Positions 3,047 through 8,398 of a DNA stretch of 64,000 nt are shown in pieces. Numbering within the stretch: the stretch's first letter is position 1; every line of letters starts with the position of its first letter. The DNA is from Gammaproteobacteria bacterium. Lineage in GTDB: Bacteria; Pseudomonadota; Gammaproteobacteria; JAUZRS01. A program made the position numbers and the translations under genes. Location of the stretch: contig JAUZSP010000006.1 of the NCBI GenBank assembly GCA_030949385.1, positions 314,121 to 378,120 of the forward strand. Direction: 5' to 3'. The notes under the pieces are model-generated. The model saw only the letters and a list, made by a program, of their open reading frames with translations. It searched no databases and was not told where the DNA came from.

Positions 3047-3107
3047 TCAGTGACAAAAAATTTGTGATAAATTCTGGTCCAAGTTAGCTTAATAGGATGT
3101 GTTAATT

Positions 3108-4538
3108 ATGAGCAGTACTGTTTTAGAGAGTCGTTTGCAAAGTTTGCAACAGCATTTGCAGCAAGAGAACCCCATTTTACTGGAGGCGATTGAGGGCTTT
3201 CGTGAGTTGGATCGTGTCGCTTACGGGATGGGTTTGCTCTCCAAGGATGAGTCTTATGCCACCCAAATTCCGTGGTGGCCATTGATATCCATTTTAGGCA
3301 CCTTTTCAGCGGGTAAGTCGAGTTTTATTAATCACTATACGGGTACTCGTTTGCAGTCCACCGGCAATCAAGCGGTGGACGATAAATTTTCGGTGCTCTG
3401 CTACAGCCAAGGCGAAGATGGACGGGTTTTGCCCGGTTTGGCGTTGGACTCGGATATGCGTTTTCCCTTTTTTAAAATCAGCGATGAAATTGAGAAAGTC
3501 GCTGAAGGAGAAGGTCGGCGCATCGATGCGTATTTACAGCTTAAAACCAGTTCATCGGAGAATTTGCGCGGTAAAATTCTGATCGATTCACCGGGGTTTG
3601 ATGCTGATGCTCAGCGCACATCAACCTTAAGAATCACCAAACACATCATTGATCTGTCTGATCTGGTGTTGGTCTTTTTTGATGCGCGTCACCCTGAACC
3701 TGGTGCGATGCACGATACTTTGAAACATTTGGTTGAGGACACCATCGGGCGTAACGATTCGAATAAATTTCTCTATATTTTGAATCAAGTTGATACCGCT
3801 GCGCGTGAAGATAATTTGGAAAACATTGTGGCTGCATGGCAGCGTGCTTTGTCGCAAAAAGGTTTGACCGCAGGGCGATTTTTCACCATTTACAATGAAG
3901 ATGCGGCGGTACCTATTGAAGACGATGCGGTGCGTCAGCGTTATGAAAATAAGCGTAAACAGGATATGGCGGACATTCATGAGCGTATGCATCAAGTGGA
4001 AGTGGAGCGCGCTTATCGTATTGTCGGTCAACTGGAGCGGGTGGCTCATGACATTGAAGAGCGTCATGTACCCGCGATAACGGCCTTGTTGCAACGCTGG
4101 CGGCAACGGGTGATGTGGCTGGACGGTGGGCTTTATGGTCTATTATTGGTCTTTTTACTCTGGATAGGCGTGTCTCTGCCGTGGATAGAAAGTCTGTTTA
4201 ACAGCCCTGAGATGAGTCTTATGTTTGTGGTATCGACGGTTTTAATTTTAGGTGGTCTGCACCATTTTTCACGGGAAGTGGTGACGCGTTTTATGGTTAA
4301 AACAATGAAAAAATCGGGAGATGAAAGCTACCTTGTTGCTCTGCGAAAAAACACCCGTTTTTGGCGTTCTGTTGTGCAGAAAACCCCAACCGGTTGGGGA
4401 CGACGGGCGAAAAAACGCCTGACTGCGGTGATGAATAAGTCTTCGGCGTTTGTCCAACGTCTGAATGATCAGTTTACCAACCCTTCTGGTGTGGCCGCTG
4501 AAGCGAAAAAAACCGAAACGGTGGCACCAAAAAAATGA
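3108..4538 (+). CDS. Dynamin-like GTPase with C-terminal membrane hairpin
   Basis: 476 residues from ATG 3108, which is preceded by an AGGA at 3094-3097; GTG 3099 is less likely. GTPase motifs are in order: G1 GTFSAGKSSF near residue 70, G3 DSPGF near 165, and G4 NQVD near 228. A helical stretch follows, then two membrane segments (GLYGLLLVFLLWIGV and MSLMFVVSTVLILGGL, about residues 345-400) and a basic cytoplasmic tail. This layout fits bacterial dynamin-superfamily proteins that bind and remodel the inner membrane; the cellular process is unknown. Its stop overlaps the start of a tyrosine phosphatase gene (ATGA), so the two are translationally coupled. The pairing suggests envelope or polysaccharide control, but there is no direct proof. 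Confidence 0.75.
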   Translation: MSSTVLESRLQSLQQHLQQENPILLEAIEGFRELDRVAYGMGLLSKDESYATQIPWWPLISILGTFSAGKSSFINHYTGTRLQSTGNQAVDDKFSVLCYSQGEDGRVLPGLALDSDMRFPFFKISDEIEKVAEGEGRRIDAYLQLKTSSSENLRGKILIDSPGFDADAQRTSTLRITKHIIDLSDLVLVFFDARHPEPGAMHDTLKHLVEDTIGRNDSNKFLYILNQVDTAAREDNLENIVAAWQRALSQKGLTAGRFFTIYNEDAAVPIEDDAVRQRYENKRKQDMADIHERMHQVEVERAYRIVGQLERVAHDIEERHVPAITALLQRWRQRVMWLDGGLYGLLLVFLLWIGVSLPWIESLFNSPEMSLMFVVSTVLILGGLHHFSREVVTRFMVKTMKKSGDESYLVALRKNTRFWRSVVQKTPTGWGRRAKKRLTAVMNKSSAFVQRLNDQFTNPSGVAAEAKKTETVAPKK

Positions 4539-6336: not shown

Positions 6337-6864
6337 GTTCCGACACTCATGGGTAAGTCTGTGGGACGGTGCTCCACGACGGTGTTCATGCATCGCTCCC
6401 ACTGCTCAGATGATCGAGCATCGACAACGCTTTTTTTTGAAGATCCAAACAGTCGTTGGCAATCTGCACCTTGCGCTTCAAGCGGTCGTTCTCTTTGCGC
6501 AGCTGTTCGTTTTGGCGCTGCTCGGGGGTCTTGGAGGACGCAGGTCCTGGGCGGCTTTTGCTCAAACCTTCAACGCCGTGTGCTTCGTAGTCTCGTCGCC
6601 AATCACAGAGTTGATTGTTGTAGAGCTTCTCGCGTCGAAGCAAGGCACCCAGCTCTCCGTGTTTACAGGCATCCGCCTCGGCAAGAATCTTTAATTTGTA
6701 GTCGGCATTGAAACGACGTCGGGTTCGTTTCTCTAGAGCCGGCTTCGGTGTGACTTGGGTCTCGGGCAGTTCGGTAACTGAGTTTGGCATGCTGCTTCAT
6801 CCTGGTTTCTAACCCTGATATCTATGTTATCTCATACAAGGTCTGTATGGACGCAGGTTGACAC
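6337..6864 (-). mobile_element. Truncated IS3-family element with orfA and start of orfB
   Basis: The element reads on the minus strand. Its left terminus is TGTCAACCT (complement of 6855-6863), followed by orfA (6790 to 6386). orfB then starts in an ATGA overlap at 6389. Only about 18 orfB codons remain before the sequence meets the terminus of the neighbouring IS copy at 6335/6336. That junction shows the neighbour inserted into, or recombined with, this element. Both copies share the TGTCAACCT end, so they belong to the same or closely related IS families. It has no transposase core and cannot move on its own. Confidence 0.7.
6386..6790 (-). CDS. IS3-family transposase OrfA
   Basis: 134 residues. 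The N-terminal part reads RRRFNADYKLKILAEADAC, the Transposase_8 helix-turn-helix, followed by LLRREKLYNNQLCDWRRDYE and then a long heptad-like coiled coil (NEQLRKENDRLKRKVQIAND), the leucine-zipper region used for OrfA/OrfAB assembly. Length and layout are normal for OrfA. OrfB starts in an overlapping ATGA but is cut after about 18 codons, so OrfA is an orphan. OrfA alone binds IS ends and can repress transposition, but it has no catalytic function. Confidence 0.88.
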   Translation of the reverse strand: MPNSVTELPETQVTPKPALEKRTRRRFNADYKLKILAEADACKHGELGALLRREKLYNNQLCDWRRDYEAHGVEGLSKSRPGPASSKTPEQRQNEQLRKENDRLKRKVQIANDCLDLQKKALSMLDHLSSGSDA

Positions 6865-6897
6865 ACAGGGCCTCTGTGTTCTGTTTGAAACCCAGCG

Positions 6898-6969
6898 AGC
6901 CGCTACCGCTTCGGTCTGGATATTAATCGAGCCTTGGGGCTGATCAAGAAGCGACCCAAACTACCCTGA
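6898..6969 (+). pseudogene. Possible transposase C-terminal fragment
   Basis: A short frame ends at TGA 6967-6969 and reads RYRFGLDINRALGLIKKRPK followed by LP. It has the look of a basic transposase tail, but it is only 23 codons and follows a stop codon. The rest of 6970-7137 has no convincing coding content; a minus-strand frame through it lacks any recognisable domain. I treat 6865-7137 as decayed mobile-element DNA. Confidence 0.3.
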
Positions 6970-7137
6970 CACAGGGGGTGAATTGAATCAGTAAACTTAA
7001 CTTTCAGGGAGCTGGGGTTACAGTGCCGAAAGCTGCGGAATTCGCTCGGCTTGAATAGCGGGAAATAGGGAAGGTACTGCCGTTTTAGACAGACGTTGCT
7101 GTAAGGACAACGATCATCAGCAGTTCTTGGGGCGAAC

Positions 7138-8184
7138 CTAATCAGGATTGGCTTTAGCAGCATGAATCATTCTGTCAATACTATCAGTAGTATGAACTGA
7201 CATGATACTAACCTGAGGGTTTCTACGAGTGAAAACACGAAATACTTCATCTGCAAAAGCCTGTCCAATTGAATCCACATCAGAAAAATCTAAAAGTATA
7301 TTATTAAATTTTTCTACACGATTTAATATTCGTTTTGCCTGTGACCTAGATACAAGCTTTTCACCCTCATACAAGACTAATTTAACTGGTACTACAGTAG
7401 TATTAAAAGCAAAGTCTTCATCCTCAGTACCTGTAAATGCATCGAAAACATCACCAAGGTTTATTGCGCTATCTAAAGCTACTTTCATGTACACGGTTGT
7501 GCCTTTTTGCTCGCTATCATTATGAAATAAATAGTCATCAGCTCCTTCATTGTGCGAAAAAATCAAATCTCCGCTATAAATATAAAACGTATCAAATGTT
7601 CTAGAGGTAAAAAAAATACCTTGGCCAGTATGATTTTCTGGGTCTGTCGTTAGTTTTCCCTTGCTAAGTTCTAGTATTGATTCCCTAGGGTCGCTTAACT
7701 TCATTACACGAGAAATGTGATTAAAAATACCCTCGCCATTATCTGAGATAAAAAACTCTATATAGTCATTATTTATTTTTGCACTAATATATACAGATTT
7801 TCCACCAGAGTGATCTATGGCATTATTTAGCATTTCAGTAAAACCATAATGGCAAATGTCTTCAATTTCATTAGGTAAGTTTTTAAAAATATAACTAAAA
7901 TCTTTATAGTAGACATCACTTTCATGAAGATTTTTAAGAGAAAATTCTTGGGTATGAGAGCGTTTGGCACCTAATGCATAAATTCGTGCTTTTGTATTTC
8001 CTTCGGCAACTAAGTACCCCATTTTTATTAAGGCAGATAGATGAGTGTGAATAGTTTGGCGACTGACATTAAAAATTTCTTGTCCATCATGAATCATTTG
8101 ATGGTTGTCGGACTTAACAGCACTTAGTAAGTACTTTCTAATCAGTCTTGAGCGTTTTGTTTTACCTAATGAATTAGCAGTCAT
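7138..8184 (-). CDS. Winged-helix / HATPase / STAS-like (DUF4325) regulator
   Basis: 348 residues from ATG 8184; an upstream TTG at 8190 is in frame. Three parts are visible. Residues 1-85 are a winged-helix DNA-binding domain (IFNVSRQTIHTHLSALIKMGYL). About 90-235 is a GHKL ATPase fold with an N-box (EMLNNAIDHS), a G1 box (DNGEGI) and GQGIFFTSR. About 270-345 is a DUF4325/STAS-like domain (NNILLDFSDVDSIGQAFADE). This family is known from genome surveys but its targets are not. It resembles an anti-sigma kinase and anti-anti-sigma pair joined to a DNA-binding head. The gene is AT-rich compared with its neighbours, is isolated, and lies beside IS debris, so it was probably acquired by transfer. 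Phased repeats overlap its start, which suggests autoregulation. Confidence 0.85.
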   Translation of the reverse strand: MTANSLGKTKRSRLIRKYLLSAVKSDNHQMIHDGQEIFNVSRQTIHTHLSALIKMGYLVAEGNTKARIYALGAKRSHTQEFSLKNLHESDVYYKDFSYIFKNLPNEIEDICHYGFTEMLNNAIDHSGGKSVYISAKINNDYIEFFISDNGEGIFNHISRVMKLSDPRESILELSKGKLTTDPENHTGQGIFFTSRTFDTFYIYSGDLIFSHNEGADDYLFHNDSEQKGTTVYMKVALDSAINLGDVFDAFTGTEDEDFAFNTTVVPVKLVLYEGEKLVSRSQAKRILNRVEKFNNILLDFSDVDSIGQAFADEVFRVFTRRNPQVSIMSVHTTDSIDRMIHAAKANPD

Positions 8185-8256
8185 TGTCAACCCGTTACAG
8201 ATTCATTGTCAAGTTATAGAGTCGTCATTGTAAAGGTATTGGTAGTAGATTGTAAA
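8181..8256 (-). repeat. Four direct repeats at a 22-bp period over the regulator's start
   Basis: On the plus strand TCATTGTCAA occurs at 8181-8190 and 8203-8212, TCATTGTAAA at 8225-8234 and AGATTGTAAA at 8247-8256: four copies with exactly 22-base spacing and a shared ATTGTMAA core. Twenty-two bases is about two helical turns, so all copies face the same side of the DNA. In the gene's direction the units read TTTACAAT, TTTACAAT, TTGACAAT, TTGACAAT, and the last contains the ATG. Adjacent units also give a TTTACA-18-TACAAT promoter-like pair. The two units before the last, those at 8225-8234 and 8203-8212, open very short ATG-to-TAA frames of five and four codons. Confidence 0.8.
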
Positions 8257-8398
8257 GAAGTGGATTTTTATTTGAGCTCTAACTATGTGTTAGCCGGATA
8301 AGAAAAGATTAAGAGTAGTGGATAACCAAGCCTGAATACAATAAAAACGCTAAATTCCTTTTACCTAAAAAGCAAGAGATTTTTAAAACCCTCACTTT
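8257..8398. other. Intergenic, no feature found
   Basis: This AT-rich spacer lies between the repeat array and the end of malQ. No convincing hairpin terminator, promoter or small gene was seen. Confidence 0.5.

Follow-up and report, generated by a model that had tools for sequence, protein, structure and literature searches.

A solitary regulator gene of a Gammaproteobacteria bacterium (GCA_030949385.1) starts inside an array of direct repeats. We consider it likely that these repeats form the operator of the gene's own product, whose DNA-binding heads would line up on them head-to-tail, repress the gene and, perhaps, be released in response to a nucleotide or ligand. The stretch of DNA analyzed here (the window) comprises 64,000 nucleotides, positions 314,121 to 378,120 of the forward strand of contig JAUZSP010000006.1, and the regulator locus is chromosomal, within a 448-kb contig. 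The initial annotation had reported four cores at 8183, 8205, 8227 and 8249, and these were present as described, with ATTGTCAA at the first two positions, ATTGTAAA at the last two and a step of exactly 22 bp. Because the regulator gene is on the minus strand, the repeat reads TTGACAAT or TTTACAAT toward the gene, in the order TTTACAAT, TTTACAAT, TTGACAAT, TTGACAAT. The features of the array and its gene are as follows.

7101..8314, minus strand: array-plus-gene unit missing from a genome of the same genus (G001), delimited by homology breaks
8249..8256, minus strand: array copy 1, TTTACAAT, with TTTACA as the −35 hexamer in a promoter-like pair
8227..8234, minus strand: array copy 2, TTTACAAT, whose TACAAT is a −10-like hexamer with an 18-bp spacer from copy 1
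8214..8228, minus strand: micro-ORF ATGACGACTCTATAA opened by copy 2, present, not conserved, rejected as a control element
8205..8212, minus strand: array copy 3, TTGACAAT
8195..8206, minus strand: micro-ORF ATGAATCTGTAA opened by copy 3, present, not conserved, rejected as a control element
8183..8190, minus strand: array copy 4, TTGACAAT, which runs into the ATG start codon (8184-8182)
7138..8184, minus strand: regulator ORF of 348 aa if read from the ATG (350 aa with TTG 8190 as start)

When all 64 kb were scanned for sets of four 8-mers at equal spacing (period 12-60, at least 30 of 32 matches), the regulator array was the sole match, with no second four-copy phased repeat of such quality in the window, and its three-copy score exceeded those of all 200 dinucleotide shuffles. 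The array copies form three promoter-like pairs, against 0.7 expected. The regulator likely starts at ATG 8184, within the last copy, as had been noted from the sequence; an ATG occupies the same place of the last repeat in three close relatives (L009, L105 and L106).

The protein combines a DNA-binding head, a GHKL ATPase and a DUF4325/STAS-like domain, an architecture already recognized in the initial annotation and recovered here by profile searches and structure prediction (AlphaFold2 [AF2] model of the whole protein, mean pLDDT 85).

7972..8157, minus strand: N-terminal winged helix-turn-helix, approximately residues 10-71 (AF2 pLDDT mostly above 90; weak HTH Pfam matches)
8023..8061, minus strand: predicted recognition helix, residues 42-54, with R-Q-T-I-H46-T-H-L (AF2 helix 42-54)
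7477..7929, minus strand: GHKL (Bergerat) ATPase domain, from motif residues and Foldseek
7141..7410, minus strand: C-terminal DUF4325 STAS-like domain (PF14213, E 1.5e-13)

The GHKL domain shows the N-box E/N, the G1 DxGxG and the G2 GxG motifs together with the fold; residues E117, N120, N121, D148, G150, G152, G187 and G189 were invariant among 69 sequences, and the best solved Foldseek match was SpoIIAB (E 1.1e-5, TM-score up to 0.77 by target length). The C-terminal domain scored 50.7 bits with the PF14213 profile, against a curated cut-off of 23 bits. Folded alone by AF2 it reached a pLDDT of 91 and was closest by fold to RsbS (Foldseek probability 1.0, E 0.015), and a sequence search with it against the PDB gave no match. 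Pfam profiles detected neither a recombinase nor a Rep domain in the chain, phage replication initiators gave weak HTH-level matches, and defence annotation of the protein itself yielded weak HTH-level matches to Csa3 and nothing else. These results bear out one part of the proposal that the chain unites the components of a partner-switching pathway, namely the SpoIIAB-like and RsbS-like folds. They do not bear out the phosphorylation that such a pathway uses: no conserved Ser/Thr was found in the family at the phospho-acceptor position of the SpoIIAA/CapS type, the start of the second STAS helix. This helix starts at residue 308, where the family pattern is G-Q-A/G-F (G307 and Q308 in 54/54 sequences, A309 in 45/54, with Ser in 2/54), and the position of S305 of the window protein holds Ser/Thr in 18 of the 54. 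A classical phospho-switch is therefore unlikely in the family.

To see how far the array accompanies the gene, we gathered relatives from bacterial genomes (many of them MAGs), IMG/VR contigs and class-level genomes; the groups named in their records are, among others, Proteobacteria, Cyanobacteria, Chlorobi, Planctomycetota, Acidobacteria, Chloroflexi, Campylobacterota and Desulfobacterota. Among 101 non-redundant upstream regions, one of which is that of the window, direct repeats of at least 10/11 identity occurred at period 22 in 48 regions and at period 21 in 30, whereas random windows of the same loci predicted 0.2 and 0.9, respectively. Among periods 8-60, none besides 21, 22 and 42-44, which is twice the basic period, exceeded 3 regions. 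A three-copy array was significant at p≤0.005 against own-sequence shuffles in 71/101 relatives, with mean array scores flat at nine control period settings, and about one sixth (17/101) had no significant three-copy array (p>0.05). Successive TTKACAA copies were 21 bp apart in 36 cases and 22 bp apart in 49, with at most 4 cases at any other distance. The usual array has three copies, the last close to the start codon, and in many relatives every copy is upstream of it. Homologs lacking the repeats had been named at the outset as evidence that would count against an operator; most homologs keep both array and spacing. Five members were fetched later: the best period was 22 in two, and the other three, which are distant, showed no clear array, indicating that the array is typical of the family's core and not of every wHTH-GHKL-DUF4325 protein. 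In another distant member, L127, five TTGACAA copies were seen, some nearer to each other than two helix turns.

The letters of the repeat vary while the ruler stays. Cores fall into the classes TTGACAAT, TTTACAAT, TCCTTTAAGAAA, ATTACAA, TTGTCGA, CTGTCTAT and others, each with a spacing of 21-22 bp, and TTTAAGAAA cores also had this spacing in 12 pairs. As several of these cores are not σ70 hexamers, the spacing is a feature of the protein and does not derive from promoter geometry. In the TTTAAGAAA class, two direct copies were followed by an inverted one, whose offset from the last of them was 16 bp in 10/10 cases; L103, L107 and L058 are among the TTTAAGAAA-class loci with an inverted TCCTTTAAGAAA copy, a mixed direct/inverted operator. 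Core similarity followed HTH similarity at constant protein body (partial rank correlation [rho] 0.26, permutation p 0.0005), whereas the reverse correlation, of core with protein body at constant HTH, was 0.03. Within the recognition helix, residue 46 (ATG numbering) was Asn in 26/30 TTGACAA members and His in 15/19 TTTACAA members (Fisher 2.6e-7), and the start of the helix (the R42 position) read P/A-Q in the TTTAAGAAA class and R-Q in all other tabulated classes. A tree of the protein body alone contained 3-4 well-supported independent pairs for residue 46 against the core base; with so few independent changes, significance is out of reach on the tree, and a role for residue 46 in choosing the core base (Asn with TTG, His with TTT) is only suggested. 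That the spacing is kept in distant relatives while the repeat sequence changes, with the core tracking the HTH, argues strongly that the regulator itself most likely binds the array and controls its own gene, as the initial annotation had proposed.

The array and the gene also behave as one unit. G001 contains neither: homology to it ends at 8315 on the malQ side, and the segment 7003-7100 is present elsewhere in that genome. A clean empty site in G001 was considered and rejected, an IS sequence lying beside malQ and the two flanks being on different contigs. DNA homology to L106 (75% identity) runs from 8257, the edge of the first repeat, exactly to the stop codon at 7138. No conserved neighbour or operon accompanies the gene, the largest neighbour cluster comprising 6 of about 100 loci with no recurrent partner gene; Pfam and PADLOC assigned adjacent genes to scattered families of no recurrent type, and the next gene lies on the same strand at 46/91 loci, again with scattered families. 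At three loci (L055, L065 and L068), members lie beside or between the defence genes HmaB (DUF1156 methylase) and HmaC (DUF499/Swt1-HEPN). At L008, a full-length member has just downstream of it a second DUF4325 fragment (G038:C72, 55830-56117), which contains an in-frame TGA and is probably a decayed duplicate. In the window, the region just downstream of the regulator (6386-7012) holds orfA of an IS3-type transposase (6386-6790) and, at 6977-7012, 36 bp that probably represent an IS end and recur five more times in the same genome; farther away, at 3099-4538, a dynamin-like GTPase gene is followed by a low-molecular-weight phosphatase-like gene.

No second paired site of the array motif was found in the regulator's own genome, nor any further paired site among the loci of relatives whose array is clear, 544 kb in total. 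A pattern search of 12 other genomes returned 4 matches other than a member's own array, against 2 control matches. One of the four, L150 (G002:C221:2500-3850; site 1217-1245, MKLARTKRAELIRKF), carries a TTTACAAT array and proved to be a further family member, truncated at a contig end, that lay outside the protein searches; finding it from the array alone was a successful, if small, prediction. Since the same genome encodes L099, of the TTGACAA class, a single cell holds arrays of two classes. A TTGACAA pair at 22 bp, on its own and away from the family gene, was also seen in the genome of a close relative (L149; G318:C21, near 7192), flanked by an HTH gene and a small ORF that has a signal-peptide-like stretch; it may be an external target or a chance occurrence. 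Conserved as a unit among unrelated neighbours, and with no further arrayed operator in the genome, the array and gene together point to a dedicated self-operator.

In the mechanism that we propose, each array copy would be the site for one winged-helix head. As 21-22 bp correspond to two turns of B-DNA, protomers would sit on one face of the DNA, the direct repeats forcing the bound heads into tandem order as in PhoB (PMC3348028), and the row would span the promoter and the gene start. This arrangement fits the same-face co-operative binding suggested earlier, and assembly on the array is probably co-operative and head-to-tail. The array overlaps the predicted promoter, its copies also reading as −35 and −10-like hexamers at 18-bp spacing. 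With the array covering both the promoter-like pairs and the start codon, occupancy should repress: a filled array would shut out RNA polymerase and keep expression low, and autorepression is thus probable. One head per two turns would leave space for each GHKL-STAS body to contact the next, and the SpoIIAB-like GHKL and STAS-like domains would probably pack against the neighbouring protomer. The invariance of the GHKL motifs makes nucleotide control plausible; the nucleotide state (ATP), a ligand or the GHKL-STAS contact might make or break the row and free the promoter. A bolder version, which we hold to be possible but rather doubtful, is a one-protein switch in which GHKL and STAS domains grip from neighbour to neighbour, forming an ATP-dependent head-to-tail chain on the two-turn ruler of the gene's own promoter through a joint that needs no phosphorylation, the solitary gene acting as an effector in its own right (in DNA-damage or phage sensing, for instance) with no operon to govern.

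Several other explanations of the repeats were weighed. They could be nothing but overlapping σ70 hexamers (TTGACA and TACAAT, 18-bp spacing), that is, tandem promoters with no operator role; the excess of promoter-like pairs and the −35 consensus, TTGACA, speak for this. However, non-hexamer cores such as TCCTTTAAGAAA, TTGTCGA and CTGTCTAT keep the same spacing, three or four copies are retained, the core tracks the HTH domain, and a host promoter would be commoner in the genome than the array motif, making this explanation quite improbable. That a host DNA-binding protein reads the array instead of the gene product is very unlikely, given that the array travels with the gene over many phyla, is missing together with it in G001, is unique in the genome and covaries in its core with the gene's own HTH. 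If, as we favour, the regulator binds its own array, it might still be a positive autoregulator or part of a bistable switch. A position over the −35, the −10 and the start codon would be improbable for an activator, and CapS, a STAS-wHTH protein, represses when bound over promoters (PMC13373217); we therefore regard activation as unlikely.

Translation control through the micro-ORFs had also been raised in the initial annotation, and RNA binding of the repeated leader would be another form of it. Copies 2 and 3 do open frames from ATG to TAA, 5 and 4 codons long, respectively, stop included, and the start codon lies inside the last copy. The ATGs of copies 2 and 3 are, however, missing from L009, L105 and L106, a strict two-turn spacing is a property of the DNA helix that would be pointless in single-stranded RNA, and all copies precede the start codon in many relatives, so that this idea was abandoned for the micro-ORFs and has very little probability overall. 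Finally, the repeats might serve a small element as an iteron-like or partition-like site for DNA maintenance or mobility, autoregulation being a by-product, inasmuch as direct repeats adjoin a winged-helix gene, the unit occurs sporadically between unrelated flanks, and phage replication initiators resemble the HTH weakly. Against this, with the queries tried, no relative was found in 72,556 plasmids or 50,697 phage records, where a ParA control query found at least 5000, and the locus is chromosomal, its protein having no recombinase or Rep domain; family members did occur on 10 IMG/VR contigs. We consider this the least probable of the explanations. A self-operator bound by the regulator thus remains the preferred reading.

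The family is spread over many bacterial phyla, and the literature searched yielded no functional study of it. Its repeats combine a constant two-turn ruler with variable letters, which predicts where the protein would bind, in which order the protomers would lie and which HTH residues would choose the letters. It would also place partner-switch domains within a single DNA-bound chain, beside the newly described CapK/CapS immune regulators. The question raised is why a solitary regulator is so widespread, yet has an arrayed operator at its own gene only.

Among known families, the C-terminal domain is a clear member of PF14213 (DUF4325), for which passing mentions and no functional study were found in a literature search that left most subscription journals outside its scope. 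Unlike iteron plasmid replicons, the regulator showed no plasmid relatives for the queries tried, and its locus lies within a large contig. It resembles SpoIIAB/SpoIIAA and RsbW/RsbV in a GHKL fold nearest to SpoIIAB and a STAS-like domain nearest to RsbS; unlike them, it is one chain fused to a DNA-binding head, its phospho-acceptor serine is not conserved and no sigma factor partner was seen. The repeats of the pho box are spaced by 11 bp, in contrast to 21-22 bp here, and direct repeats one helix turn apart (period 11) were absent from the upstream regions of the relatives. PhoB/OmpR-type winged helices likewise bind direct repeats with tandem, head-to-tail symmetry (PMC3348028), whereas GHKL-STAS here replaces their receiver domain. 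Rv1364c of Mycobacterium tuberculosis, a PAS-phosphatase-kinase-STAS chain acting on sigma F (PMC9138534), also unites several partner-switch parts, including kinase and STAS, but has no DNA-binding head.

The closest parallel is CapK/CapS (PMC13373217, EMBO J 2026). CapK, an HTH-STAS-GHKL kinase activated by ssDNA, phosphorylates CapS, which represses immune operons; CapS is a STAS-wHTH protein and binds TTAA palindromes over promoters, including its own, with co-operative oligomerization on DNA. The two systems share the same kinds of domains, HTH/wHTH, SpoIIAB-like GHKL and STAS, but CapK and CapS are encoded by two adjacent genes with another domain order, whereas the regulator is a single wHTH-GHKL-STAS chain. 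CapS has a conserved STAS serine and an immune operon downstream; the regulator family has no conserved serine and unrelated neighbours. In place of palindromic TTAA sites it has direct repeats at 21-22 bp, to which one inverted copy is added in the TTTAAGAAA class only. CapK/CapS is thus the nearest published system, of which the regulator family is not a member but a one-chain, solitary variant.
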